The notes below the pieces were generated by a model. The model saw nothing but the letters and a program-made list of their open reading frames with translations, made no database searches and was not told the DNA's origin. A stretch of 12,237 nucleotides of DNA from Gammaproteobacteria bacterium (GTDB taxonomy: Bacteria; Pseudomonadota; Gammaproteobacteria; Steroidobacterales; Steroidobacteraceae): NCBI GenBank assembly GCA_009923475.1, contig RFTM01000017.1, positions 1 through 12,237 on the forward strand, in the 5' to 3' direction. Each line of letters starts with the position of its first letter. The first letter of the stretch is position 1. Shown piece by piece: positions 247 to 10,807 of the stretch. Position numbers and translations under genes: made by a program.

Positions 247-438
247 AACATGACCGGCACGAGCCTGTCGGTCGGTCCGGCGTTCGTGCTCGGCCAGTTG
301 TGCGACATCGTCGATCTCGACGGGCCGCTGTTCCTCGCGGACGACCCGCCGCCGGCGGTGACCTATCGCGACGGGTCCGTGGACTGCCCGCCGACCGTGT
401 GGGGCGGCCCTGCTACGGAGCCGGCTTCGGGTCCGTAG
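223..438 (+). pseudogene. Dipeptide epimerase / N-acetyl-D-Glu racemase (DgcA-like), C-terminal fragment
   Basis: The last ~70 residues of this reading frame match the C-terminal end of enolase-superfamily dipeptide epimerases. The signature is [15 protein letters not shown], then [17 protein letters not shown], then a short [12 protein letters not shown] tail ending near VWGG. In the family the GxMxxTS and DLDGP segments close the barrel around the substrate. Members either epimerise L-Ala-D/L-Xaa dipeptides or, as DgcA, racemise N-acetyl-D-glutamate. DgcA is favoured by the dgcN gene further along the window, because DgcN and DgcA act in sequence. The first ~300 residues, including the metal ligands and catalytic lysines, are missing and replaced by an S3 fragment. 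The stop is at 436-438, so its end overlaps the converging transporter gene by 26 bp. Family call fairly sure; exact substrate unsure. Confidence 0.75.
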
Positions 439-1543
439 CGCTGCCCGACGCGGCGGCCGTGCCCCGGGTGATGCGCCAAAGGCCGAGCGTCGCCACCGGT
501 ATCACGTAGACCACGATGAAGAGCCAGGCGAGGAAGCGGTACCCGCCGGCGATCAGGGCGACCAGTCCGACCTTGGTGGCGACGAAGACCGCGATCACCA
601 GCATCGCGGCGGTGACCGCCGCGCGCATCGGGGTCGTCAGGCCGAGGCCGCGCGGGGCCAGCACGCCGGCGATGCGCTGGTTCAGGCCGTGCACGCAGCC
701 GGCGCCGCTCTCGAGCAGCGCGGCGAAGATCATGAGCTGGAACACGACATGGAACGTCGGCGCATCGATCCGCGTGAGCACGTGGTCCGACGGCAGCGCC
801 GCGGACCCGATCTCCGGATACCACGCGGTCATGCACACGAAGAACAGCAGCGCCGGCAGCATGCCGAGCGGGCCGCACAGCAGGCCCGCGATCACCGCGT
901 CGCGCCGGCTCGTCAGGTGCCTCAGCACCGGCAGGATGGCCACGGCGCCGACCACGTTGTAGGCGGCGTAGGTGAGCCCTCCCGGCACCCAACCGACCGG
1001 GTCCTGCGGAGCGGCGAAGGCGGCGACGATGCGGTCGCTGGCCTGCGACACCACGAGCACGACGAAGATCGCGTAGACGAGGTACAGGAAGTACGTGACC
1101 CACTTGAAGAGCCCTTCCACGGACTCGTTGCCGAAGGTCGCGAACAGCGCGATGCCGAACACCAGCGCGAGCGTGCCCACGAGCTTCGGCCAGCCGAGCA
1201 CCGCATGCCCGAGCTCGCCGGCGGCGGCGCCGAACACGGACAGCACGATCAGCAGCAGCGCGACGAAGGCGAGGTCGAAGACGAACGCGAGAGGTCCGAG
1301 CAGGTTGCGGAAGAACGCGCCGTAGTCGTAGGCGGCGACCTGTCGCGCATACACGAAAGTGATCGCGGCGATGGCGCTCCACACGACCATCGCCAGCAGC
1401 ATGCCGAGCACGCCGCCGAGCGGACCGCTCGGCAGGAAGAACTCCGCGAGCTCGCGACCGGTGGCGTATCCGCCGCCGATCACCACGGCCTTGAAGGCGA
1501 AACCGGGAAGGAACCAGCGTTGGAACCTGGAATGGCCGCTCAC
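413..1543 (-). CDS. YkvI-family integral membrane protein, candidate amino-acid/peptide permease
   Basis: A 376-residue, very hydrophobic protein with about ten predicted membrane segments. It starts with a short basic N-terminus and [20 protein letters not shown]. This Gly-rich first helix followed by a charged RELAEFF resembles the YkvI (COG3949) membrane proteins, which have an LeuT-like transporter look but no established substrate. The start is taken as GTG at 1543 because its bases overlap the TGA of the upstream deacylase (GTGA at 1540-1543), a classic coupled arrangement. The longer frame upstream gives an Arg-rich, non-membrane stretch that lies over the deacylase gene and is unlikely to be translated. 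Being last in an operon with a D-aminoacylase-like and a beta-lactamase-fold gene suggests import of their products; this is inference from context. The 3' end overlaps the epimerase gene by 26 bp. Confidence 0.75.
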
Positions 1544-3159
1544 GGCTGCCAGGTCCAGTCCTTGCTCGATGCGCGGCAACCGCCGCCGGGCGCGCCGGTC
1601 CAGGCCCGGCCGCGCACGACGCGGCCGCTCCACTGCCGCGTGGCCTCGCCGTCCTTGAGCGCGCGGACGCCGTTGATCCACACCTGTTCGACGCCCGTGG
1701 ACAACTGGTGCGGCTCCGCGAAGGTCGCGTGGTCCTGCACCGTCGCGGGGTCGAACACGACGACATCCGCGTAGTGTCCCGGCTTCAACAGCCCGCGGTC
1801 GGTGAGCGAGAGCACGGAGGCGGGGAGGCCGGTCAGCTTGCGCACCGCATCCTGCAGGGTGATCACCTTCTCCTCGCGCACATACTTCGCGAGCAGGCGT
1901 GCGAAGTTGCCGTAGGCGCGCGGATGCGGGGAGTACTTCAGGAACTCGCCTTCCGGCGCCGAGCCCTCCGCATCGGAGCCGAAGCTCATCCAGGGCAGCG
2001 CGACCTGGCGGCGGATGTTGTCCTCGGACATCAGGAAATAGGCGACGCCCACGCGCGTGCCGTCCTCCACGACGAGCGACATCATCGTCTCTTCAGGCGT
2101 CTGTCCGCGCGCCTTGGCGACCTCCGCGAGCGTCTTGCCGATGTACTGCCGCAGCGCGGGGTTCTTGAACTGCAGGAACAGCATCCCTTCGGGGCCGGCC
2201 GCCTGCCCGAGGTTCTCCCATGGGGACGCCGGGTCGGCCATCTCCGCGGCGACGCGCTTGCGGACCGCGGGGTCCTTCAGTCGCTCGATCCACTTCTCGA
2301 GGCCGCCTTCCTGCACCCACGGCGGCATCGCGGCATCGAGGCCGGTCGCGCCCGCAGGGTAGGTGTACATGTCCGCGGTGATCCGCGTGCCGGAGGCGCG
2401 CGCCGCCTCGATCTTCGCGATCACGGCGTCGAGCTTGCCCCAGTTCCTCCGGCCGGCGACCTTGAGGTGATAGATCTCGGCCGGCGCACCCGAGCGCTTG
2501 GCGATGTCGATCGTCTCGTCGATGGCCTCCAGCAGCCGGTCGCCCTCGCTGCGCATGTGGGCGATGTACATGCCCCCGCATCGGCCTGATTCGGCGGCGA
2601 GCGTGACCAGTTCGTCGGTCTTTGCGTAGGTGAAGGGGGTGTAGATGAGCGCGGTGGTGACCCCGAGCGCGCCTTCCTCCATGGCCTGTCGGACAAGCCC
2701 GCGCATCTGTCCGAGCTGGGCGGCATCCGGCTGCACATCGTCCTCGCCGAGCACATAGGTACGGACGGTCCCCGTGCTGACGAAAGACGCGATGTTCGGC
2801 GCGATGCCCTTCTTTGCCAGGCCGTCCAGGTATTCGCCGAGCGTGGTCCAATCGACGTCGTACTTGAGGTCAGCCTGGTTGTCGCGGAACTGCCGCTTCA
2901 TGCGCTCGTTGAGCGGGCCCATCGATATCTCGCCCATGACCTCGAGGGTGACGCCCTGCCGGAGGTCCGAAAGCGCGCGGCCGTCGACGAGCAGCGACTC
3001 TTCGGGGTGCGCGAGCATGTTGATGAAGCCCGGCGCCACCGCACGGCCCTTGGCGTCGAACTCCTCCTTGCCTTTGCCGGGCGCGCGCGGTCCGACGTAG
3101 ACGATGCGATCGCCCTTGATGGCGACATCGCGGACGCTGCGAGCACGATCGCCCAGGCC
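1540..3159 (-). CDS. D-aminoacylase-like amidohydrolase (COG3653), 5' end missing
   Basis: About 539 residues of an N-acyl-D-amino-acid deacylase relative, a family that removes N-acyl groups from D-amino acids using zinc. Recognisable parts are VRDVAIKGDRIVYVG in the N-terminal sandwich, APGFIN entering the barrel, IAHMRSEGDRLLEAIDE (near 2540-2570) and IYHLK (near 2461-2478), which hold the two conserved His ligands. FGSDAEGS (near 1965-1990) holds the conserved Asp, and LTGLPASVLSLTDRGLL with GHYADVVVFDP closes the sandwich. The usual HxH after PGFID is here NMLAHPEE, and the usual NCG cysteine position reads VMGE, so this is a divergent branch or an altered enzyme. The native start, signal peptide and first ~30-50 residues are missing: at 3139-3159 the sequence joins a truncated upstream gene in another frame. 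The stop overlaps the next gene's GTG. As the sequence stands, no proper start exists. Confidence 0.8.
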   Translation of the reverse strand, partial: GLGDRARSVRDVAIKGDRIVYVGPRAPGKGKEEFDAKGRAVAPGFINMLAHPEESLLVDGRALSDLRQGVTLEVMGEISMGPLNERMKRQFRDNQADLKYDVDWTTLGEYLDGLAKKGIAPNIASFVSTGTVRTYVLGEDDVQPDAAQLGQMRGLVRQAMEEGALGVTTALIYTPFTYAKTDELVTLAAESGRCGGMYIAHMRSEGDRLLEAIDETIDIAKRSGAPAEIYHLKVAGRRNWGKLDAVIAKIEAARASGTRITADMYTYPAGATGLDAAMPPWVQEGGLEKWIERLKDPAVRKRVAAEMADPASPWENLGQAAGPEGMLFLQFKNPALRQYIGKTLAEVAKARGQTPEETMMSLVVEDGTRVGVAYFLMSEDNIRRQVALPWMSFGSDAEGSAPEGEFLKYSPHPRAYGNFARLLAKYVREEKVITLQDAVRKLTGLPASVLSLTDRGLLKPGHYADVVVFDPATVQDHATFAEPHQLSTGVEQVWINGVRALKDGEATRQWSGRVVRGRAWTGAPGGGCRASSKDWTWQP

Positions 3160-5048
3160 TGCGAGTACCAGGGCCTGCCGCTGCGGAACGTCTTCACGGC
3201 GCCCAGCACGAGCATCACGGCGCCGCCGACATAGGCGACCACCGAGAGCGCGTAGAGGACATAGAGCCATTTGTCGAACGCGGGCGCGAACAGGAACGTG
3301 GTGAAACCGCGCACCGCGACGGCGAGCCAGAGGGCCGTCATGCCGAACACCGCCAACGAGCCGAGGCGGGTCAGTCGGCGCGCCGCCAAGCCCTCGCCGG
3401 TGAGGCCGAGCGGGGCACGGAGGCGCCAGCGCACGATGGCGCCGATGGGCCAGAACAGCACGGTGAGGAGCGTCGCCGCGAGCGCCACCGCGAGGGCGGG
3501 CCGCAGCCAAGCCGGCGAGCGGTATGCCGGGAAGGGCTGGAACACCATGGCGAAGGCGAACTGGTCGTGGCTGATGCGCTCCACGCGGTCGCCGTCCATC
3601 TTCGCGGCGATCCGCCAGCCGGAAGCCGTGTCTTGCCACACATAAGGCGCGATCTCCCGGAAACGCAGGGGCGCCGAGCCCGAGCTGTCCAGTAGCGCAC
3701 TGAAGCTGATGGTGTCGTCGTCGTTCGCCACCACCTTCATGGGTTGGATCATGCCGAGCGCGGCGAGGAACGAGCGGTCCGTCCGGCGCGAGATCTCGTA
3801 GATGCCCGCGACCTGCCGAGCGTGCTGCTTCGCCGTGGCGGTCGTCGGCGCCGGCTGGGCCGTGGCCGGGAAGTAGCGGTCCATGAACTGCCGGAACAGC
3901 TCGTTGCGGATCGGCGATACGGCGCCTTCCTTGCCCACGCTGTTGAGCGAGATGAAGAAGCCCACCTTTTCGTCGGGCAGCAGGTGCAGGACGCTGTGCA
4001 TGTAGACCGTATCGCCGCCGTGGCTGATCACGCGGCGACCGTTGTAGTTCTGCTCGTAGAAACCCAGCAACATGCGGTTCAAGGGCGGGATCGACTCCAT
4101 CGCGGTGCCGTGCATCATCTCGGCCGTCGCGGCCGACAGGATGCGCTGGCCCTCGAACTCGCCGTCGTTCAGGTGTGCGAGCATGAAGTGCGACATGTCG
4201 ATGCCGCTGGCCGCGAGACTGCCGGCGGGCCCGGGCGTGACGAACTCGAACTTCTCTGCCGGCTGCGTCGCCTGCTTGTAGCCCTGCGACATGTGCGCCT
4301 CCAGCGCCTTGGGCAGCGGCTGGCGGAAGGTCGAGTGCTCCATGCGGAGGGGCTTGAAGATGCGTTGCTCGACGTAGTCGTCGAACTTCAGGCCCGAGAC
4401 GCGCTCGACGAGGTGGCCCGCGAGTCCGGTCGCATAGTTCGAGTATGCCGGCGTGGTGCCCGCCTTGAAGATGCGGATGGGCGTGTAGTCCCGCGCGTAC
4501 TCGCCGAGCGGCCTCAACGTCGCGGGGTCGTCGGTGATCAGGCCCTTGACCTGCTCCTCGAAACCGGCGGTGTGCGTCATGAGGTGGCGCAGCGTGATCG
4601 GTCCGTCCGGACGCGCCGGCACCTTGAAGTCGAGGTAGGTGTTCACGTCGGCGTCGAGATCGAGCTTGCCGGCCTCCACCTGCTGCATCACGGCCGTCCA
4701 GGTGAGGAGCTTCGACACCGAACCCGGGCGGAACATCGTCGTCGCCGGATCGACGGGGATCTTCTTCTTGACGTCCGCGTAGCCGTAACCCTTGGCGGCG
4801 ATGATCTGCCCGTCCTTCACGACGGTGACGACCGCTCCCGCGACATCGCCCCTCGCGAGCGCATAGGGCAGGAAGCCGTCGAGCCATGCGGAGGCGTCGT
4901 CGGCGGTCAGCGCGCGTGCGCCGTCGGCCACCGCGGTGACCGCAGGTGCCGTAGCGGTCGTCGGGGCGGGCGCCGGCGCGGGCGCGGCGGCGGACGCGAG
5001 CGTGGTGCAGAAGCCTAGTGCGGCAAGGAGCGGGCGAAGGTTGCGCAT
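2898..5048 (-). CDS. Serine hydrolase, beta-lactamase/D-aminopeptidase fold, with C-terminal membrane helices; 3' end lost
   Basis: A class C beta-lactamase-type hydrolase, a fold shared by D-Ala-D-Ala carboxypeptidases, D-aminopeptidases and esterases. From ATG 5048 a signal peptide (MRNLRPLLAALGF to ASAAAP) leads into an Ala/Pro linker, then the catalytic domain. The motifs are S110-x-x-K113 (SVSK), Y202-S-N204 and H343-G-G345. Helices at about 515-540, 563-588 and 594-617 would tether it to the inner membrane with the active site in the periplasm. Native sequence ends near residue 636 (about base 3139). Beyond that the frame reads an Arg/Ser-rich stretch over the deacylase gene to a stop at 2898, so the last ~80 residues are not real. 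A longer start at 5147 is rejected because it lies inside the promoter. First gene of its operon, driven by promoter region A. The substrate is not visible; D-peptides are suggested by the neighbours. Confidence 0.8.
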   Translation of the reverse strand: MRNLRPLLAALGFCTTLASAAAPAPAPAPTTATAPAVTAVADGARALTADDASAWLDGFLPYALARGDVAGAVVTVVKDGQIIAAKGYGYADVKKKIPVDPATTMFRPGSVSKLLTWTAVMQQVEAGKLDLDADVNTYLDFKVPARPDGPITLRHLMTHTAGFEEQVKGLITDDPATLRPLGEYARDYTPIRIFKAGTTPAYSNYATGLAGHLVERVSGLKFDDYVEQRIFKPLRMEHSTFRQPLPKALEAHMSQGYKQATQPAEKFEFVTPGPAGSLAASGIDMSHFMLAHLNDGEFEGQRILSAATAEMMHGTAMESIPPLNRMLLGFYEQNYNGRRVISHGGDTVYMHSVLHLLPDEKVGFFISLNSVGKEGAVSPIRNELFRQFMDRYFPATAQPAPTTATAKQHARQVAGIYEISRRTDRSFLAALGMIQPMKVVANDDDTISFSALLDSSGSAPLRFREIAPYVWQDTASGWRIAAKMDGDRVERISHDQFAFAMVFQPFPAYRSPAWLRPALAVALAATLLTVLFWPIGAIVRWRLRAPLGLTGEGLAARRLTRLGSLAVFGMTALWLAVAVRGFTTFLFAPAFDKWLYVLYALSVVAYVGGAVMLVLGAVKTFRSGRPWYSQAWAIVLAASAMSPSRAIASSTSDRARPAKARRSSTPRAVRWRRASSTCSRTPKSRCSSTAARFRTSGRASPSRSWARYRWARSTSA

Positions 5049-5107
5049 CGGTGTGTCCGTGGTGGGTGTGAAGGCCGTCACCGCAGCGCAGATCTGTCGC
5101 GCCCGCG

Positions 5108-5135
5108 TTGACAGTTCCGGATACGCAACTATACT
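5108..5135 (+). promoter_or_regulatory. Sigma70-type promoter for the alpha/beta hydrolase gene
   Basis: A perfect -35 box TTGACA (5108-5113) is followed after 16 bp by TATACT (5130-5135). The predicted transcript starts near 5142, giving a leader of about 100 nt before ATG 5246. An identical arrangement exists at 9665-9692. Both boxes are strong matches in otherwise GC-rich sequence, which supports the call. Confidence 0.75.
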
Positions 5136-5144
5136 GCAATTGCG
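5124..5144. promoter_or_regulatory. Candidate operator, CGCAA-N11-TTGCG dyad over both -10 boxes (copy A)
   Basis: Inverted half-sites CGCAA (5124-5128) and TTGCG (5140-5144) flank the shared -10 region. The overlapping palindromes GCAATTGC (5136-5143) and TTGCGCAA (5140-5147) extend it. All are conserved in the second copy at 9681-9701. A regulator bound here would block both promoters. I cannot name the regulator and none is encoded in the window. Confidence 0.45.
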
Positions 5145-5158
5145 CAACGCGCTGTCAA
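5128..5158 (-). promoter_or_regulatory. Sigma70-type promoter for the beta-lactamase-fold/deacylase/transporter operon
   Basis: Read on the minus strand, TTGACA (5158-5153) is followed after 19 bp by TATAGT (5133-5128). The spacing is longer than the usual 17 bp. The -10 box overlaps the plus-strand -10 through the self-complementary TATA at 5130-5133, so polymerase could occupy only one direction at a time. The leader to ATG 5048 would be about 73 nt. The only Shine-Dalgarno-like element is a weak ACGGA about 9 nt before the ATG. Confidence 0.65.
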
Positions 5159-5245
5159 CGGATGGGCCCGCTTGCAGCCAGCTGACTCTCGCGATCCCTG
5201 CGCGACCGTCCCCCGGTCCTCGGACACCTCCGGAGCTGATGCGCC

Positions 5246-6727
5246 ATGCGTGTTTTCGAATGGTTGACGGTCATCGTGGTGGTGGCGATGGCTTGGCGAT
5301 GGGTCCGCGGTCGGCGGGCCGGCCTCCATTTGGCCCTGGTCGGTGTCGTCCTTGCGGCCGTGAGCGTGGTGTTCGAGGGGCAGCGCCTCGTGATGTGGCC
5401 CGCGTACCTCGTGGTGCTGGTGGCCCTGCTCAATGGGCTGCGCGCGCCCGCCGCGCCACCGGTCGCGGCTCGATGGTGGCGGAAGATCGGGCGGGGCGCT
5501 TGGGTGGCGCTGCTGCTGGTGGTCGCGGTGGCCTTGCCGATCCTTTGGCCGGTGATCCGGCTGCCTGCGCCGACGGGGCCGCATCCCATCGGCACGGCGT
5601 GGCTGGTGGTGAAGGACTCGACGCGCCTCGAGCGCTTCTCGGCGATACCGGGCGCGACGCGGGAGTTCCCGGTCAGGCTCTGGTATCCGGCGGCAGCCGG
5701 CGCGAAGGGGCCGATGGCCCCCTATGCGGAGGGCAGGGAGATGACGCTCGGCGGTGTCTTGCCGTCGCTGCTCATGGACCAGGCCCGGTTCACCCGCACC
5801 CACTCGATGCTCGACGTGCCGATGGCGGAGGGCAAATGGCCGTTGCTGATCTTCTCGCACGGCTACACGGGGTATGTCGCCCAGAACACCGTGCAGATGG
5901 AGGAGCTCGCCAGCCGCGGCTATGTGGTGGCCAGCATCGGCCATCCCGGCGAGGCGGCGTGGGCGCCGTTCCCGGACGGCCGCGGCATCCCCTACGATCC
6001 TTCGCCGATGAAGGCGATGACGCGGGAGATCGAACGCTCGCGCAAGCCCGGGACCGACCCCAAGAAGGAGGCGGACCGCCTGCTCGCCTCGCTGGCCGTC
6101 GCCGATCCGGTGGCGCGGCGCGCCAACTTCCGGGCGTTCCTCATGCAGGTGCCCGAGCCGCTGCGCTCGCAGAGCGTCACGCAGTGGGCCCTCGACACCA
6201 AGGCATTGCTCGACCGGCTCGAGGGCCAGCAGGCGAGTCCCGCCGATGCGCTGCTACGCGGGCGGCTCGATCTGCAGCGTGTCGGGGTCTTCGGGATGTC
6301 CTATGGCGGGGCCACGGCCATCGAGTTCTGCCGGTTGGACCGGCGCTGCCGGGTCGCGATCGACATCGATGGCACGCCGTGGGGAGGGATCATCGATGAC
6401 ACGCTCCGCGTGCCGCTGCTGGTGATCGGAAGCGATCCGGCCTACCCGACGCACCTGCCGCTGCTGGACCTGGTGCAGGCACCGGCCTTCGCGATCAAGG
6501 TGCCGGCCACCAACCACTTGGGTCTCTCCGACTTCTCGCTGCTCGGACGGCCGGTCGCCTGGATAGGCATGACGGGACGGCTCGACCCGGCGCGCCGCCA
6601 GTCGATCATGACCGACTACGTGGTCGGCTTCTTCGAGAGATACCTGATGGGCCGCTCGCCCGAGCAGTTCGACGGGCTGGCGGCCCGCTACCCGGACGTG
6701 GAGATCGCCAAGCGCAACGTCCCCTGA
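5246..6727 (+). CDS. Membrane-anchored alpha/beta hydrolase, PAF-acetylhydrolase-like
   Basis: A 493-residue protein. Four hydrophobic helices (about 5-20, 27-44, 50-65 and 85-104) precede a catalytic domain that starts near TREFPVRLWYP (about 138-148). That strand and IFSHGYTGY (203-211) are typical of bacterial relatives of platelet-activating-factor acetylhydrolase and dienelactone hydrolases. The nucleophile is S352 in GMSYGG, with D375 in IDIDG and H424 in TNHLGLSD as likely triad partners; His-203-region HG supplies the oxyanion turn. The catalytic domain probably faces the periplasm, but topology is not certain from sequence. ATG 5246 has a GGAG 10 nt upstream. It is transcribed from promoter region A, divergent from the deacylase operon, and converges on dppA with 42 bp between the stops. 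An ester or amide bond is cut; the substrate is unknown. Intact. Confidence 0.8.
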   Translation: MRVFEWLTVIVVVAMAWRWVRGRRAGLHLALVGVVLAAVSVVFEGQRLVMWPAYLVVLVALLNGLRAPAAPPVAARWWRKIGRGAWVALLLVVAVALPILWPVIRLPAPTGPHPIGTAWLVVKDSTRLERFSAIPGATREFPVRLWYPAAAGAKGPMAPYAEGREMTLGGVLPSLLMDQARFTRTHSMLDVPMAEGKWPLLIFSHGYTGYVAQNTVQMEELASRGYVVASIGHPGEAAWAPFPDGRGIPYDPSPMKAMTREIERSRKPGTDPKKEADRLLASLAVADPVARRANFRAFLMQVPEPLRSQSVTQWALDTKALLDRLEGQQASPADALLRGRLDLQRVGVFGMSYGGATAIEFCRLDRRCRVAIDIDGTPWGGIIDDTLRVPLLVIGSDPAYPTHLPLLDLVQAPAFAIKVPATNHLGLSDFSLLGRPVAWIGMTGRLDPARRQSIMTDYVVGFFERYLMGRSPEQFDGLAARYPDVEIAKRNVP

Positions 6728-6769
6728 TCGCGGCGGCCTCGACCGCCCACGGCGCTCTGCACGGGGGCG

Positions 6770-7588
6770 CTAACGAAGGGACGCGGACATCGCGGAGAGG
6801 CTGTTGAGCATGCGCACCGCAGCCTCGACCGTGGGGGCATCGAACGCCACCTCGTCGCCGCCCAGCCGCCGCATCGCAGGCCACTGGCAGAACAGGTCGG
6901 CGAACGCCGGCGTCTGCGTCTGCACGCGCACCGCGACCGGGCAAGCCAGCGTGAAGAGCTGCGCGTCGCCGAGCCTGCGCAGCGCGGCCGCCGCGCCTGC
7001 CCGGATGGCCTCGCACGACTGCGCCGGCGAGAGGCTCACCCCGCTCGTGTGCCCCGTGGCGCGCTTGGTCTGCACGAAGGTGGCATGCGGGAAGAGCGTA
7101 CGGTTCTCCTCGATGAAGGCGTCGTCGCCGCTCGCCATTGCCACCGGCGCGCCGCGCTCGCCGGCGAGCGCCCCGTAGATCCCGGCCTCGCCCAGCTCGC
7201 GGTCGTTGACCGCGATGCGCGCGAAGGCGAGGCTGTTGATGGTGTGCGCGAGGATGCCGCGTCCCCGCGCCCGCGAGTGGTAGCCGATCATCAGGACCGC
7301 ATCGACGCCTTCCTCCACGCCGGCCACCATGCCGAGGTAGCGCGGCTTGCCCTGCACCACGCGGGCGCGGGCGTCGAGCCCGTCCGGCGGCATGTTGCGG
7401 AAGTTGCCGTGCGAATCGTTCACCAGCACGTCCGTAGCGCCCGCATCGAAAGCGCCGGCGATGGCGGCGTTGGCTTCCTGGGCCATCAGCAGGCGGGCCC
7501 TCTCGTGCTCGGCGTTGCCGGCGCGCGTCTGCTCCGCGTGGAAGACGCCGGCCACGCCCTCGATGTCGGTGGATACGAGGACCTTCAT
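6770..7588 (-). CDS. dppA: D-aminopeptidase DppA (family M55)
   Basis: A 272-residue cytoplasmic zinc aminopeptidase, nearly the same length as Bacillus subtilis DppA (274). The family removes N-terminal D-amino acids, classically D-Ala from D-Ala-D-Ala and short D-Ala peptides. Known metal-ligand positions line up: D8 and E10 in STDIEG, H60 in NDSHGN, H104 in IGYHSRA, and an acidic residue at E134 in ELGEAGIYG. The segment KRATGHTSGVSLSP is typical of the family's C-terminal half. The start at 7588 is supported by GGAG (7600-7597 on the minus strand), 8 nt away. It follows the S9 peptidase gene by 58 bp on the same strand, so both probably come from promoter region B. A bacterium with secreted peptidases and DppA can use D-Ala-containing wall peptides; that role is inferred. 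Intact. Confidence 0.93.
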   Translation of the reverse strand: MKVLVSTDIEGVAGVFHAEQTRAGNAEHERARLLMAQEANAAIAGAFDAGATDVLVNDSHGNFRNMPPDGLDARARVVQGKPRYLGMVAGVEEGVDAVLMIGYHSRARGRGILAHTINSLAFARIAVNDRELGEAGIYGALAGERGAPVAMASGDDAFIEENRTLFPHATFVQTKRATGHTSGVSLSPAQSCEAIRAGAAAALRRLGDAQLFTLACPVAVRVQTQTPAFADLFCQWPAMRRLGGDEVAFDAPTVEAAVRMLNSLSAMSASLR

Positions 7589-7608
7589 CCCCTGGTCTCC
7601 GTCGGCGA

Positions 7609-7642
7609 GCCGTCGCGGGACGGCCGACGCCTGCGGGCGTCG
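7609..7642. other. Two tandem hairpins between the S9 peptidase and dppA genes
   Basis: Two adjacent perfect stems sit in the 58-bp gap. One pairs 7609-7614 (GCCGTC) with 7619-7624 around a 4-base loop. The other pairs 7625-7631 (CGACGCC) with 7636-7642 around TGCG. There is no T-run, so an intrinsic terminator is unlikely; an mRNA-processing or stabilising element between cistrons is possible. Confidence 0.5.
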
Positions 7643-7646
7643 CCGA

Positions 7647-9605
7647 TCACTGCGGGTCGATGCCGCGCAGGTGCCGGTCGAACCAGCCTATGGTGCGCAA
7701 CGCCCCGTCGATCTTGTTCTCGCGCTTGAAGAGCCCGTGCCCCTCGTTCGGGTAGTAACGGGCATCGACCGGCTTGCCGAGGCGACGCAGCGTCGCCACC
7801 ACCTGTTCGGCCTCGTATTTCGGCACGCGGATGTCGTTGTCGCCTTGCAGCACGAGCAACGGCGCCTGATAGCGGTCGAGATAGGTCAACGGGCTCACGC
7901 GCTCGTAGACCTCGCGGTCCCTGACCGGGTGCCCGATCAGTCCCTCCTGGTACGCCCGCAGCGCCGGCGATCCGCGCTCGTGCATCGAGGTCCAGTTGGT
8001 GATGCCGCAGACCTCCACGCCGGCCGCGAAGACATCGGGCGCGCGGCCGAGCGCGATCATCGTCATGTAGCCGCCGTAGGACACGCCCGTGATGCCGACG
8101 CGCTTCGCGTCGACATAGCCCGAGTCGACGAGGAACTTCACGCCCGCGACATAGTCGCCGAGGTCGCCGCCGCCGAGGTCGCGGATGTTGGCGCGCATGA
8201 ACGCCCGGCCGTAGCCGGTCGAGCCGCGCGGGTTCGGCGCGATCACGAAGTAACCCCGGGCGGCGAGCGCGACCGCGGTCGCATCGTAGCGGTCCTCGGT
8301 CTGGCCGGTCGGGCCGCCATGGGCGATCACCACGGCGGCGGCGCTGGCGTCACGGCGCGCGTTGGCCGGCACCCAAAGGATCGCGCTGATCCGCGTGCCG
8401 TCCTGCGCGGGATAGGTCACGACCTGCGTCGACGGCAGCGTCGCGACCGCGGACTCCGAGAAGCGCAGGAACGGACTGCTGCGGCCGCTCTTGCGGTCAT
8501 GGCTCCAATAGGCGAGCGGCTCGGTCCCGGACTGGTGGGGGAAGATGATGCGGCCGTCCGGTGTCTCGGCGGGCAGCTTGCCGAAGTAGTCGGTGTTCAT
8601 GCCGGACGGGAGCGGCAGGGTCTCGGTGCGTCCCGATGCGATGTCATGCCGCTTCACGACGCTGCGACCGTCGATGTTGTCGAGGAACAGCAAGGTCTTG
8701 CCGTCGGCGGAGAACCGCAGACTGCTCTGCTCCCACGGTCCGGGCGCGAGCATGCGCAGCTTCTGGGCGCGGACATCGAACAGCGCCGCCTGCTTCCTGC
8801 CGTCGGCGGTCTCGGTGGTAAGGGCCAACCAGCGTTCGTCCGGGCTGATGTCCGATACCGGGTTGATGGGCGAAACCGGCTTGCGGATCACCGGCACCGC
8901 CCGTCCATCGGCGACCGTGATCCGATAGAGCGTGTCCTCGACGCTGCCCGTGATGTCCACGCGGCGCGCATAGACGGCGCGGCCGTCGGCCGAGAACTCC
9001 ACCGCCGCCCACTGCCGGTCGGGCAAGGTCTCGGAGGTGAGCGTCCGCTCTGCGCCGCTCGCAAGGTCCATGACCACGATGTTCGCCGAGGGCGCGGTCT
9101 TCAGCCGGCGCGAGAACGCGAGTCGCCTCGCGTCACGCGAGAACACGGCGCCCGCCTCGGAGGCTTCGGGCGTGCGGGTCAGGTTGCGCGATGCGCCGCC
9201 GGCCACCGGCACCGCGTGCAGGTCGAACATCTCCGCGCCGCCGAGGTCCTCCCCGTAGACCACGGTCTTGCTGTCCGGCGAGACCGTGATGCCCCAGTGG
9301 CGGTCGTCGGAGGTGGTGAGGCGACGCGGCGTCCCGCCCGCGGTGTCGACATGCCAAAGGTTGAGCCGGCCGCTGGCATCGGAGGCATAGACGAGTCCGC
9401 GTCCGTCCGGGGTCACCGCCGCATCCCAACTCGCCGGTTCTGAAAAAAGCGCCGCCACCGACGGCGTCGCCGCCTGCGGCATCTGTGGCGAGACGATCGA
9501 GCGCGGGTCGGTCAGCGCCCTCGATGGCGTCGGCACGGGCGCTGCGGCGGACGCGAGCGTGGAGGAGAGGGCGGCTGCGGCGAGGAGCGGGGCAAGCGTG
9601 CGCAT
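7647..9605 (-). CDS. Secreted S9-family prolyl-oligopeptidase-type peptidase
   Basis: A 652-residue serine peptidase. A signal peptide (MRTLAPLLAAAAL to ASAAAP) precedes a beta-propeller of about residues 50-390 with repeated SPD/SADG blades, which limits access to short peptides. The alpha/beta-hydrolase domain follows. S509 sits in GVSYGGYM, D591 in GDNDIRVP and H623 in NEGHGLF, a complete triad. The IAHGGPTGQ and NPRGSTGYG segments are typical of the S9C/acylaminoacyl-peptidase-like branch. The start is ATG 9605, not the longer frame to 9827, because that extension lies over the promoter and the divergent dgcN gene. Its signal peptide and leader are near-copies of those of the beta-lactamase-fold gene at 5048. 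It is first in an operon with dppA, and probably cuts oligopeptides in the periplasm or outside to supply DppA and import. Intact. Confidence 0.92.
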   Translation of the reverse strand: MRTLAPLLAAAALSSTLASAAAPVPTPSRALTDPRSIVSPQMPQAATPSVAALFSEPASWDAAVTPDGRGLVYASDASGRLNLWHVDTAGGTPRRLTTSDDRHWGITVSPDSKTVVYGEDLGGAEMFDLHAVPVAGGASRNLTRTPEASEAGAVFSRDARRLAFSRRLKTAPSANIVVMDLASGAERTLTSETLPDRQWAAVEFSADGRAVYARRVDITGSVEDTLYRITVADGRAVPVIRKPVSPINPVSDISPDERWLALTTETADGRKQAALFDVRAQKLRMLAPGPWEQSSLRFSADGKTLLFLDNIDGRSVVKRHDIASGRTETLPLPSGMNTDYFGKLPAETPDGRIIFPHQSGTEPLAYWSHDRKSGRSSPFLRFSESAVATLPSTQVVTYPAQDGTRISAILWVPANARRDASAAAVVIAHGGPTGQTEDRYDATAVALAARGYFVIAPNPRGSTGYGRAFMRANIRDLGGGDLGDYVAGVKFLVDSGYVDAKRVGITGVSYGGYMTMIALGRAPDVFAAGVEVCGITNWTSMHERGSPALRAYQEGLIGHPVRDREVYERVSPLTYLDRYQAPLLVLQGDNDIRVPKYEAEQVVATLRRLGKPVDARYYPNEGHGLFKRENKIDGALRTIGWFDRHLRGIDPQ

Positions 9606-9664
9606 CGGTGTTTCCGTGGTGGGAGTGCAGACCGTCACCGCGGCGCAGATCTGTCGCGCTCGCG

Positions 9665-9692
9665 TTGACAGTTCCGGATACGCAACTATACT
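9665..9692 (+). promoter_or_regulatory. Sigma70-type promoter for dgcN and the amidohydrolase
   Basis: TTGACA (9665-9670), 16 bp, then TATACT (9687-9692), identical to the promoter at 5108-5135. The start point would be near 9699, placing ATG 9736 about 37 nt downstream. Confidence 0.75.
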
Positions 9693-9701
9693 GCAATTGC
9701 G
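9681..9701. promoter_or_regulatory. Candidate operator, CGCAA-N11-TTGCG dyad (copy B)
   Basis: CGCAA (9681-9685) and TTGCG (9697-9701) flank the shared -10 region and are base-for-base identical to 5124-5144. The identity could reflect recent duplication as well as selection. Confidence 0.45.
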
Positions 9702-9715
9702 CAACGCACTGTCAA
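9685..9715 (-). promoter_or_regulatory. Sigma70-type promoter for the S9 peptidase-dppA operon
   Basis: On the minus strand TTGACA (9715-9710) is followed after 19 bp by TATAGT (9690-9685). It shares TATA with the plus-strand -10 box exactly as in cassette A. Leader to ATG 9605 is about 73 nt. Confidence 0.65.
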
Positions 9716-9735
9716 TGTCGCGGCGACGGCAACCC

Positions 9736-10800
9736 ATGATCTCTGCCAATCCCATCGCGCCCATGTCCGGCCACTCCGAACCGCTCGTCGAGTTCGCCAC
9801 GCCGTTCGTGGTCTTCCTCGGCGACATCAGTGCGCAGACCTACGCCAAGACCGCCCTCGGGCTGATCCAGTGGCGCCCCGGCGAGTGCGTCGGCCAGATG
9901 CGGCTCTCGACAGCCACCTTCGACGCGGGCGTGCCCGATGTGACGGTCGCCGCCGCCAAGGCGGCGGGCGCTCGCTCCGTGGTCATCGGTTCGGCCGCGG
10001 TCGGCGGCATCGTGCCGGCCTCATGGGTGCCGGCGCTGTGCGAGGCGGCGCGCGCCGGGCTCGACATCGTCGCGGGCATGCACGGCAGGCTCGCCGCGCT
10101 GCCCGGTCTCGCCGAGGCCGCGGCTGCGGGCGGCGCGCGGCTCGTCGATGTGCGGGTGCCGCCACCGGGCCTGCCGGTCGGCACGGGCCGCAAGCGCACC
10201 GGCCGCCGCGTGCTCACCGTGGGCACGGACTGCGCATGCGGCAAGAAATACACGGCGCTGCAGCTCGCGGCGGACCTCCAGCGCGCCGGCATGGATGCCA
10301 CGTTCCGCGCCACCGGACAGACCGGCATCATGATCGCGGGTCGCGGCGTGCCGATCGACGCGGTGGTGTCCGACTTCGTCACGGGCGCGGCTGAAGTGCT
10401 GTCGCCGGATGCTGCGCCCGGCCACTGGGACGTGGTGGAAGGGCAGGGCTCGCTGTTCCACCCGGGTTACCTGCAGGTCACGGTGGGCCTGTTGGTCGGT
10501 TCGCAGCCGGATGCGTTCGTCGTCTGCCACGATCCGCTGCGCACGCACATCGCCAGCTGGCCGGATTTCGCGCTGCCGAGCGTGCCCGAGCTCATCGAGC
10601 GCACCATCCTCCTCGGCCGTCTCACCAATCCGGGCATCCGCTGCGTCGGCGTGTCCTTGAACACCTCCAAGGTGCCGTCCGGCCAGCGTGCGGCCTTGCT
10701 CGCGCGCTATGCGGACGAGACCGGCCTGCCTTGCGTCGATCCGCTGGTCGAAGGCACCGGCGCCATCGTGTCGGAGATCCGCCGCCGTTTCCCCGCCTGA
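9736..10800 (+). CDS. dgcN: D-glutamate N-acetyltransferase DgcN (DUF1611 family)
   Basis: A 354-residue two-domain protein of the DUF1611 family, whose characterised member DgcN N-acetylates D-glutamate so that the racemase DgcA can convert it to the L form. The N-terminal domain runs from FVVFLGD (about 24-30) through AKTALGLIQWRP to PPGLPVGTGR. The C-terminal P-loop domain opens with VLTVGTDCACGKKYTALQL (159-177), the family's Walker-A-like loop. GQTGIMIAGRG (194-204), VVEGQGSLFHPGY (233-245), VCHDP and the closing EGTGAIVSEI follow as in the family. The start is uncertain: ATG 9715, 9736 and 9763 are all in frame and none has a good Shine-Dalgarno; 9736 is a compromise given the predicted transcript start near 9699. 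Cytoplasmic. The DgcA-like fragment at the window's other end supports the pathway. Some family members may act on other substrates. Confidence 0.85.
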   Translation: MISANPIAPMSGHSEPLVEFATPFVVFLGDISAQTYAKTALGLIQWRPGECVGQMRLSTATFDAGVPDVTVAAAKAAGARSVVIGSAAVGGIVPASWVPALCEAARAGLDIVAGMHGRLAALPGLAEAAAAGGARLVDVRVPPPGLPVGTGRKRTGRRVLTVGTDCACGKKYTALQLAADLQRAGMDATFRATGQTGIMIAGRGVPIDAVVSDFVTGAAEVLSPDAAPGHWDVVEGQGSLFHPGYLQVTVGLLVGSQPDAFVVCHDPLRTHIASWPDFALPSVPELIERTILLGRLTNPGIRCVGVSLNTSKVPSGQRAALLARYADETGLPCVDPLVEGTGAIVSEIRRRFPA

Positions 10801-10807
10801 GAGGTGA
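10801..10807 (+). promoter_or_regulatory. Ribosome binding site of the amidohydrolase gene
   Basis: GAGGTGA lies directly after the dgcN stop and 6 nt before ATG 10814. It is the strongest Shine-Dalgarno in the window, which fixes this start and implies co-transcription with dgcN. Confidence 0.75.

Follow-up and report, generated by a model that had tools for sequence, protein, structure and literature searches.

Two near-identical cassettes, at positions 5046-5158 and 9603-9715, stand between divergently oriented genes of one island in a contig of a freshwater gammaproteobacterium of the family Steroidobacteraceae (RFTM01000017.1, assembly GCA_009923475.1; the 12,237 bases analysed are called the window here). 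On comparative grounds, the cassettes are real, conserved regulatory DNA, and it is probable that they represent the operator-promoters of a single local XRE-cupin repressor regulon, with a history in which the 5' leader of one gene was copied onto another. The best reading of what this regulon serves is the use of D-amino acids or peptides. The evidence consists of sequence conservation, gene associations and leader homology. An initial annotation of the window had interpreted the same cassettes as symmetric bidirectional promoters that switch four transcription units between mutually exclusive directions in response to one signal.

The cassette pair and its putative operator

Direct comparison of the two cassettes gives agreement at 106 of 113 positions, with 7 differing, and the promoter spacings on both strands and the common TATA are as initially annotated. 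The elements of the pair are as follows.

5046..5158, no strand assigned: cassette 1, putative operator-promoter between the serine hydrolase (-) and alpha/beta hydrolase (+) genes
9603..9715, no strand assigned: cassette 2, putative operator-promoter between the S9 peptidase (-) and dgcN (+) genes
5108..5135, plus strand: plus promoter 1, TTGACA-16-TATACT
9665..9692, plus strand: plus promoter 2, TTGACA-16-TATACT, predicted to drive dgcN; the same promoter precedes dgcN in relatives
5128..5158, minus strand (reads 5158 to 5128): minus promoter 1, TTGACA-19-TATAGT, predicted to drive the serine hydrolase gene
9685..9715, minus strand (reads 9715 to 9685): minus promoter 2, TTGACA-19-TATAGT, predicted to drive S9-dppA
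5114..5129, no strand assigned: putative operator 1, GTTCCGGATACGCAAC (GTTnCGnnnnCGnAAC), coextensive with the -35/-10 spacer of plus promoter 1
9671..9686, no strand assigned: putative operator 2, same as operator 1
5144..5148, plus strand: third GCAAC half-site in cassette 1, at a distance of 19 bp from the one in the operator; predicted function
9701..9705, plus strand: third half-site GCAAC of cassette 2; predicted function
4969..5158, minus strand: full repeat copy 1, with signal-peptide codons, 5' leader and promoter of the serine hydrolase gene
9526..9715, minus strand: full repeat copy 2, with signal-peptide codons, 5' leader and promoter of the S9 peptidase gene

In the plus promoter, the 16 nt between -35 and -10 form an imperfect palindrome, GTTCCGGATACGCAAC, whose half-sites can be written GTTnCGnnnnCGnAAC; a palindrome that fills the -35/-10 spacer in this way corresponds to the core-promoter palindromes of local XRE-cupin regulons. 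The consensus of the promoter-operator sites, TTGACAGTTcCG..T.CGCAACtaTAct, was derived from 14 of the 17 sites listed in this study, leaving out cassette 1, a variant site at the regulator gene of relative G054 and the S9 site of the sister species G263. Since the operator end ...CAAC abuts TATACT, a self-complementary TATA results. The third half-site is exact and in place in both cassettes and at all six dgcN sites of relatives, and reads GGAAC at the G263 S9 site; neither it nor the identity of the target genes formed part of the pattern used in the site searches described below. A MerR-type reading of the 19-bp spacer of the minus promoter was set aside, the conserved palindrome lying downstream of that spacer and not inside it.

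Within the window, TTGACA occurs four times on the two strands together, always inside the cassettes, and a scan for sigma-70-like promoters with spacers of 16-18 returned two, both of them the cassette plus promoters (shuffles, 0.7; standard deviation 0.8). The longest exact run common to the cassettes, the core named in the initial annotation, measures 47 nt. The likeness extends further, over a full repeat of 190 nt (88% identical), of which 77 nt code for the signal peptides of the two minus-strand genes and differ at 15 positions. Outside the repeat it stops, with 14/50 and 16/50 bases agreeing at the two ends.

The assembly of the window's genome (G000 in the genome labelling) amounts to 2.45 Mb in 635 contigs and is 87% complete. 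It contains two copies of the core, namely those in the window, which rules out a dispersed repeat; together with the position of the relatives' sites before dgcN or TonB receptor genes, this also argues against the core being a common repeat unrelated to gene function, the outcome that would have undone the initial annotation. A looser pattern, GTTNCGNNNNCGNAAC, is found at two more places in the assembly, both within long open frames. Neither a transposase nor a terminal inverted repeat was seen among 25 of 102 inverted pairs or in the Pfam results of nine proteins, no dedicated mobile-element search having been made, and the direct repeats on either side of the intervening block are the cassettes themselves.

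That misassembly of a fragmented metagenome bin created the pair, by a false join at the 47-nt exact repeat, is very improbable. The large number of contigs would fit such an origin, as would a contig start that is probably chimeric: the plus-strand open reading frame (ORF) at 1-438 begins with a part that matches 30S ribosomal protein S3 and continues with one that matches DgcA (70-76% to four relatives). However, the two copies of the repeat differ at 22 of 190 positions, which means that two sequences exist; the genes between the cassettes form a continuous stretch, so that any other joining would need a 4.56-kb circle or a tandem array; and common short reads span 47 nt.

Occurrence in relatives and the candidate XRE-cupin regulator

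When the cassette was searched against 118 relatives, 42 genomes gave matches at E 0.1 or better, most of these matches being short. The best match outside the own genome (84% over 44 nt, E 4.5e-7) comes from G063, which belongs to another genus of the family, and sits between its deacylase and dgcN genes. The only further matches tied to the regulon are those in G054 (6.7e-4 and 0.03) and a second one in G063 (0.07). With a pattern composed of the plus promoter and the conserved spacer bases, a search of 217 genomes of the family identified 13 sites in 8 genomes, 12 of which have at most one mismatch and are distributed over 7 genomes (own included); the reversed pattern, used as a control, matched 1 genome of 217. 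The 13th site (G118, 2 mismatches, away from dgcN) was taken as chance, as was the only new match (G355, 3 mismatches) in an order-level draw of 396 genomes that included family members and in which the reversed pattern matched 2 genomes.

All but one of the 12 sites point at dgcN or at a TonB receptor gene, cassette 1 being the exception. Among the relatives in this search, dgcN-directed sites are present in G063, G120, G134, G157 and G260, and receptor-directed sites in G054, G120, G134, G157 and G260; receptor domains were recognized by Pfam in G134, G054, G120 and G157, and in G260 for the available part. The gene divergent from dgcN at these sites belongs to the serine hydrolase/deacylase/transporter group in 5/5 relatives. 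Given that the same element precedes dgcN or the receptor in six family genomes and in G263, the earlier suggestion that one signal governs all four units is likely. Contrary to what had been supposed, a pair of sites is not unusual in itself, for G120, G134, G157, G260 and G063 each have two and G263 has three. The second G063 site adjoins the regulator gene described next and has a poor -10 box.

In G120, G134, G157 and G260, the gene divergent from the receptor encodes a regulator of about 240 amino acids with HTH_31 and Cupin_2 domains (Pfam). A helix-turn-helix (HTH) and a cupin domain are also recognized in the regulators of G263 and G063, all of these being proteins of relatives and not of the window. 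The promoter-operator separates regulator from TonB receptor in five genomes (G120, G134, G157, G260 and G263). In G054, the exception, the regulator gene is on a different contig from the receptor site and beside a divergent variant site. When the G157 regulator was used as a query against the 217 genomes, homologs of at least 65% identity were found in G157, G260, G120, G134, G063 and G054, which are exactly the six operator genomes other than the own one; the next-best protein has 60% identity, and the G263 regulator has 68%. As a side observation, a related arrangement with TACGCAAC and TTGC half-sites occurs upstream of a 54% regulator in G037 (locus L112, around 1315-1350) and is perhaps a diverged operator.

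The association was also examined from the side of dgcN, homologs of which at 67% or more are present in 16 of 150 genomes searched. Six of these 16 carry the operator at their dgc genes (G000, G063, G054, G120, G134 and G157), and five of the six have a close regulator. In the other ten, there is neither a close regulator (0/10) nor a site at the dgc genes (0/10), the 2-mismatch match of G118 lying elsewhere. In addition, the recognition-helix region KSTLSRVEN is identical in the regulators of all seven operator genomes aligned, and its K is found in 0/14 of the other regulators. A second gene of the dgcN family exists in the own genome (C174:657-1625, 52% identical), on a contig without the operator.

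Another regulator, for example of the GntR or LysR type, might bind the operator while the XRE-cupin gene merely travels with the island, which is considered unlikely. The XRE-cupin gene is absent from the G000 assembly, and a GntR/FCD regulator gene is located downstream of the S9 gene in G263, as such an arrangement would suggest. However, the operator stands between the XRE-cupin gene and the receptor gene in five genomes and beside the regulator gene in G063, and the recognition helix tracks the operator; the GntR gene was sought in G263 only. That gene (L043, 12758-13498) has the S9 gene on one side and a second TonB receptor gene on the other.

For the XRE-cupin regulon, binding, repression, an inducer and the order of events are inferred from the sequence as follows. 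The repressor would bind the 16-bp palindrome, with the third GCAAC half-site 19 bp further on, and the operator would both fill the -35/-10 spacer of the dgcN-directed promoter and cover the -10/start region of the opposite promoter. Both directions would then be shut together without inducer and opened together with it. A D-amino acid or a peptide-derived metabolite is the guess for the inducer, because of the known targets of XRE-cupin factors and a remark in PMC7901475 on D-methionine in the cupin pocket of 1Y9Q.

Directions of transcription and the probable copying of the S9 leader

The cassettes might instead be -10-symmetric bidirectional promoters in which the two directions exclude each other and one signal picks the direction at both places. 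Such a mechanism appears improbable, even slightly more so than control by another regulator. In its favor, the plus and minus -10 boxes (TATACT and TATAGT) overlap on opposite strands and have a TATA in common, -35 boxes are present on both sides in both cassettes, and divergent transcription is known to arise from -10 symmetry (PMC12825309, PMC10268837). Nevertheless, the minus strand tells against it. Of the 16 sites aligned, the G054 variant not being among them, three have the minus TTGACA, namely both cassettes and the G263 S9 promoter, and 13 lack it; among the relatives, this is 1 of 14 sites, although conservation of the minus -35 is no strict requirement of the -10-symmetric class. 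Shuffles of the flanks give a 6/6 match to TTGACA in at most 0.3% of cases. The minus TATAGT, by comparison, is found at 11 of the 14 relative sites, and none of those 11 has the minus TTGACA.

Mutually exclusive directions, as initially proposed, thus find no support. A repressor on the common operator would be expected to affect both directions alike and to turn them on and off jointly, and a 2026 study reports that polymerases do not compete at basal activity at any of five bidirectional promoters tested in E. coli, although one side, when strongly activated, can repress the other (PMC12825309). Nor does -10 symmetry appear to be the organizing principle, since what is conserved is the operator within the spacer, and the minus -35 is absent from most sites. 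The use of both directions has some comparative support, for the plus direction from the dgcN and receptor sites and for the minus TTGACA from G263 S9. On this evidence, the plus promoter is best regarded as a feature of the regulon. As the minus TTGACA is rare among the sites and the G263 S9 promoter has no plus promoter (its upstream gene runs in the same direction), the cassettes appear to combine two one-sided promoters around one operator.

The genes around the cassettes, on which the history of the locus turns, are listed below.

413..1681, minus strand: putative transporter (a label by appearance), conserved with the island
1540..3060, minus strand (start uncertain): N-acyl-D-amino-acid deacylase-like amidohydrolase; PRK09061 below its cutoff; 80% to the G063 gene
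2898..5048, minus strand: serine hydrolase of the PF00144 fold (a family name that implies no claim of resistance); 71% over 655 amino acids to the G263 ortholog
5246..6727, plus strand: alpha/beta hydrolase (abH), PF03403-like, specific to the insert
6770..7588, minus strand: M55 D-aminopeptidase, DppA-like; PF04951, 1.4e-91; below the NCBIfam DppA cutoff
7647..9605, minus strand: S9 family peptidase with a signal-peptide-like leader; PF00326; 86% to G263
9739..10800, plus strand (start codon uncertain): dgcN homolog, DUF1611 family; PF07755/PF17396
10814..12178, plus strand: amidohydrolase after dgcN; PF01979

The putative transporter has no Pfam or NCBIfam match and is 57-71% identical to genes near the deacylase or dgcN in six relatives. 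For the alpha/beta hydrolase, a search of eight operator or S9 relatives, made without a positive control, gave no match at 1e-20. Relative to G263 (L129 1213-1466), about 245 bp are absent near 3131-3139, where the serine hydrolase gene ends and the deacylase gene starts, and the two frames are out of register there, through either a real deletion or an assembly fault.

G263, a bin from lake Erken, is a sister species with dgcN at 86%. Its contig 43 carries, in order, a serine hydrolase (-), an operator, dgcN (+), two serine hydrolases (+), the regulator (-), an operator and the receptor (+). This contig is syntenic with the window and lacks the abH-to-S9 block at that place, window positions 3139-4922 and 9602-10801 matching neighboring stretches of it. 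The S9 gene of G263 is on a separate contig (L043), where it is preceded by an identical operator 16-mer (16/16) and, 23 nt before that in the direction of S9 transcription, by TTGACA, the same as in the window; the upstream regions of the two S9 genes, that of the window being repeat copy 2, are about 70% alike. In a further genome, G264, S9 is at 88%, and its locus (L042) has no exact operator or promoter-operator. A 16-mer with 1 mismatch (base 4890) falls within the reading frame upstream of S9, and such matches also occur in unrelated loci. G264 has no regulator ortholog, the best match being 25% (E 2e-5).

Global alignment of the cassettes to intergenic regions of relatives was undiscriminating, with unlike pairs at about 65-78% and the cassettes at 86%, and leaders were compared against shuffles instead. 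The leader of the window serine hydrolase scores z 10.5 in DNA and z 10.5 in protein against the G263 S9 leader, and at most z 2.4 in DNA against the leaders of five serine hydrolase orthologs. Because it matches G263 S9 far better than its own orthologs, the most likely interpretation of these sequences is that S9 promoter, operator and signal peptide were copied in frame onto the serine hydrolase gene. Near-identity, the unusual trait of the cassette pair, would be best explained by this copying. According to the proposed history, the S9-dppA-alpha/beta-hydrolase block came between the serine hydrolase and dgcN genes, which share one operator in G263, and the serine hydrolase gene would have received a copy of the promoter, operator and signal peptide that make up the S9 leader; the order of these events is conjectural.

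A wider proposal is tentative and inclines somewhat more to doubt than to confidence. It states that the regulon grows by transplanting an operator, promoter, 5' leader and signal peptide as a unit that replaces the 5' end of a neighbor in frame, the resulting cassette uniting an S9-type minus -35 with a dgcN-type plus promoter around one operator, so that four units come to be served by one repressor site present twice. If this were true, the recipient gene would gain both the control and the export signal of the donor.

Several observations weigh against a local XRE-cupin regulon with a copied leader. Most directly, no homolog of the regulator was detected in G000 at E 0.1 by a search that did recover the G063 regulator, and at 87% completeness and 635 contigs, loss of the gene is indistinguishable from an assembly gap. 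Their shared phylogeny makes the co-occurrence of operator and regulator not independent, and the XRE-cupin gene may have no part in the control; beside the G054 regulator gene, moreover, the site is a divergent variant. As for the sites themselves, the third half-site is exact at just 2/7 TonB receptor sites, the -10 boxes are poor or altered at the G063 and G263 receptor sites, and the spacing of 19 in the minus promoter is above the usual 16-18. Forward sites were chosen partly through TTGAC(A), and the constancy of the -35 is therefore partly by construction. Finally, the leaders of the serine hydrolase orthologs give protein z values of up to 3.4, and signal peptides resemble one another.

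Comparison with known systems

For a catabolic system of D-amino acids or peptides that has been little studied, the proposed regulon supplies a candidate regulator and an operator open to testing. It may also provide a worked case of how regulated promoters can spread, as a unit with a signal peptide, and would make two near-identical symmetric promoters in one island explicable without a directional switch. In the open-access literature searched, no relevant title was found on XRE-cupin control of D-glutamate or TonB/D-amino-acid genes or on duplicated operator/signal-peptide cassettes, nor, among the matches listed, on the enzymes together.

With respect to metabolism, the presence of a dgcN homolog and of a dgcA C-terminus at the window edge recalls dgcN-dgcA D-glutamate catabolism. 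Unlike curated DgcN, the homolog scores 432 bits against the DgcN equivalog NF041892, under the curated cutoff of 480, and its function is assigned by homology only.

With -10-symmetric bidirectional promoters (Warman et al.; PMC12825309, PMC10268837), the cassettes have in common overlapping -10 boxes with a common TATA. The predicted distance between start sites is about 21 bp, assuming the usual 7-bp discriminator, compared with reported common distances of 10, 18 and 23 bp; the starts would fall near 5142/5121 and 9699/9678. Unlike in that class, the symmetry here comes from an operator half-site abutting the -10, and control would be a matter of occupancy, not of competition.

The closest parallel is provided by Pseudomonas. 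According to Trouillon et al. (2021, PMC7901475), XRE-cupin factors in P. aeruginosa act mostly as local repressors, recognizing palindromes in core promoters; they have adjoining targets, generally one or two, which belong mostly to amino-acid, polyamine or peptide pathways and transport. The same paper describes repression of dppA3 and mdpA by PsdR from two sites located around the psdR gene, and states that D-methionine occupies the cupin pocket of 1Y9Q, a V. cholerae protein. When a profile was built from six of the regulators, its match to 1Y9Q (E 7.9e-7) was confined to the HTH part, with the cupin half unaligned; single-sequence search returned no solved-structure match for the regulator, and the G157 protein matches the PuuR model weakly, at 37 bits, far below the cutoff of 211. 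As in the PsdR, PauR and ErfA regulons, an HTH-cupin gene lies beside its targets in the relatives and a palindrome occupies the core promoter. Unlike in those regulons, the predicted targets are dgcN, a TonB receptor, an S9 peptidase and the serine hydrolase/deacylase group; the operator appears to have a sequence of its own, its binding by the regulator is a prediction, and the regulator gene was not found in the window's genome assembly (E 0.1). The system is therefore best read as a known type, the local XRE-cupin regulon, and its unusual part would be its history, the transplantation of a regulated promoter together with a signal peptide.

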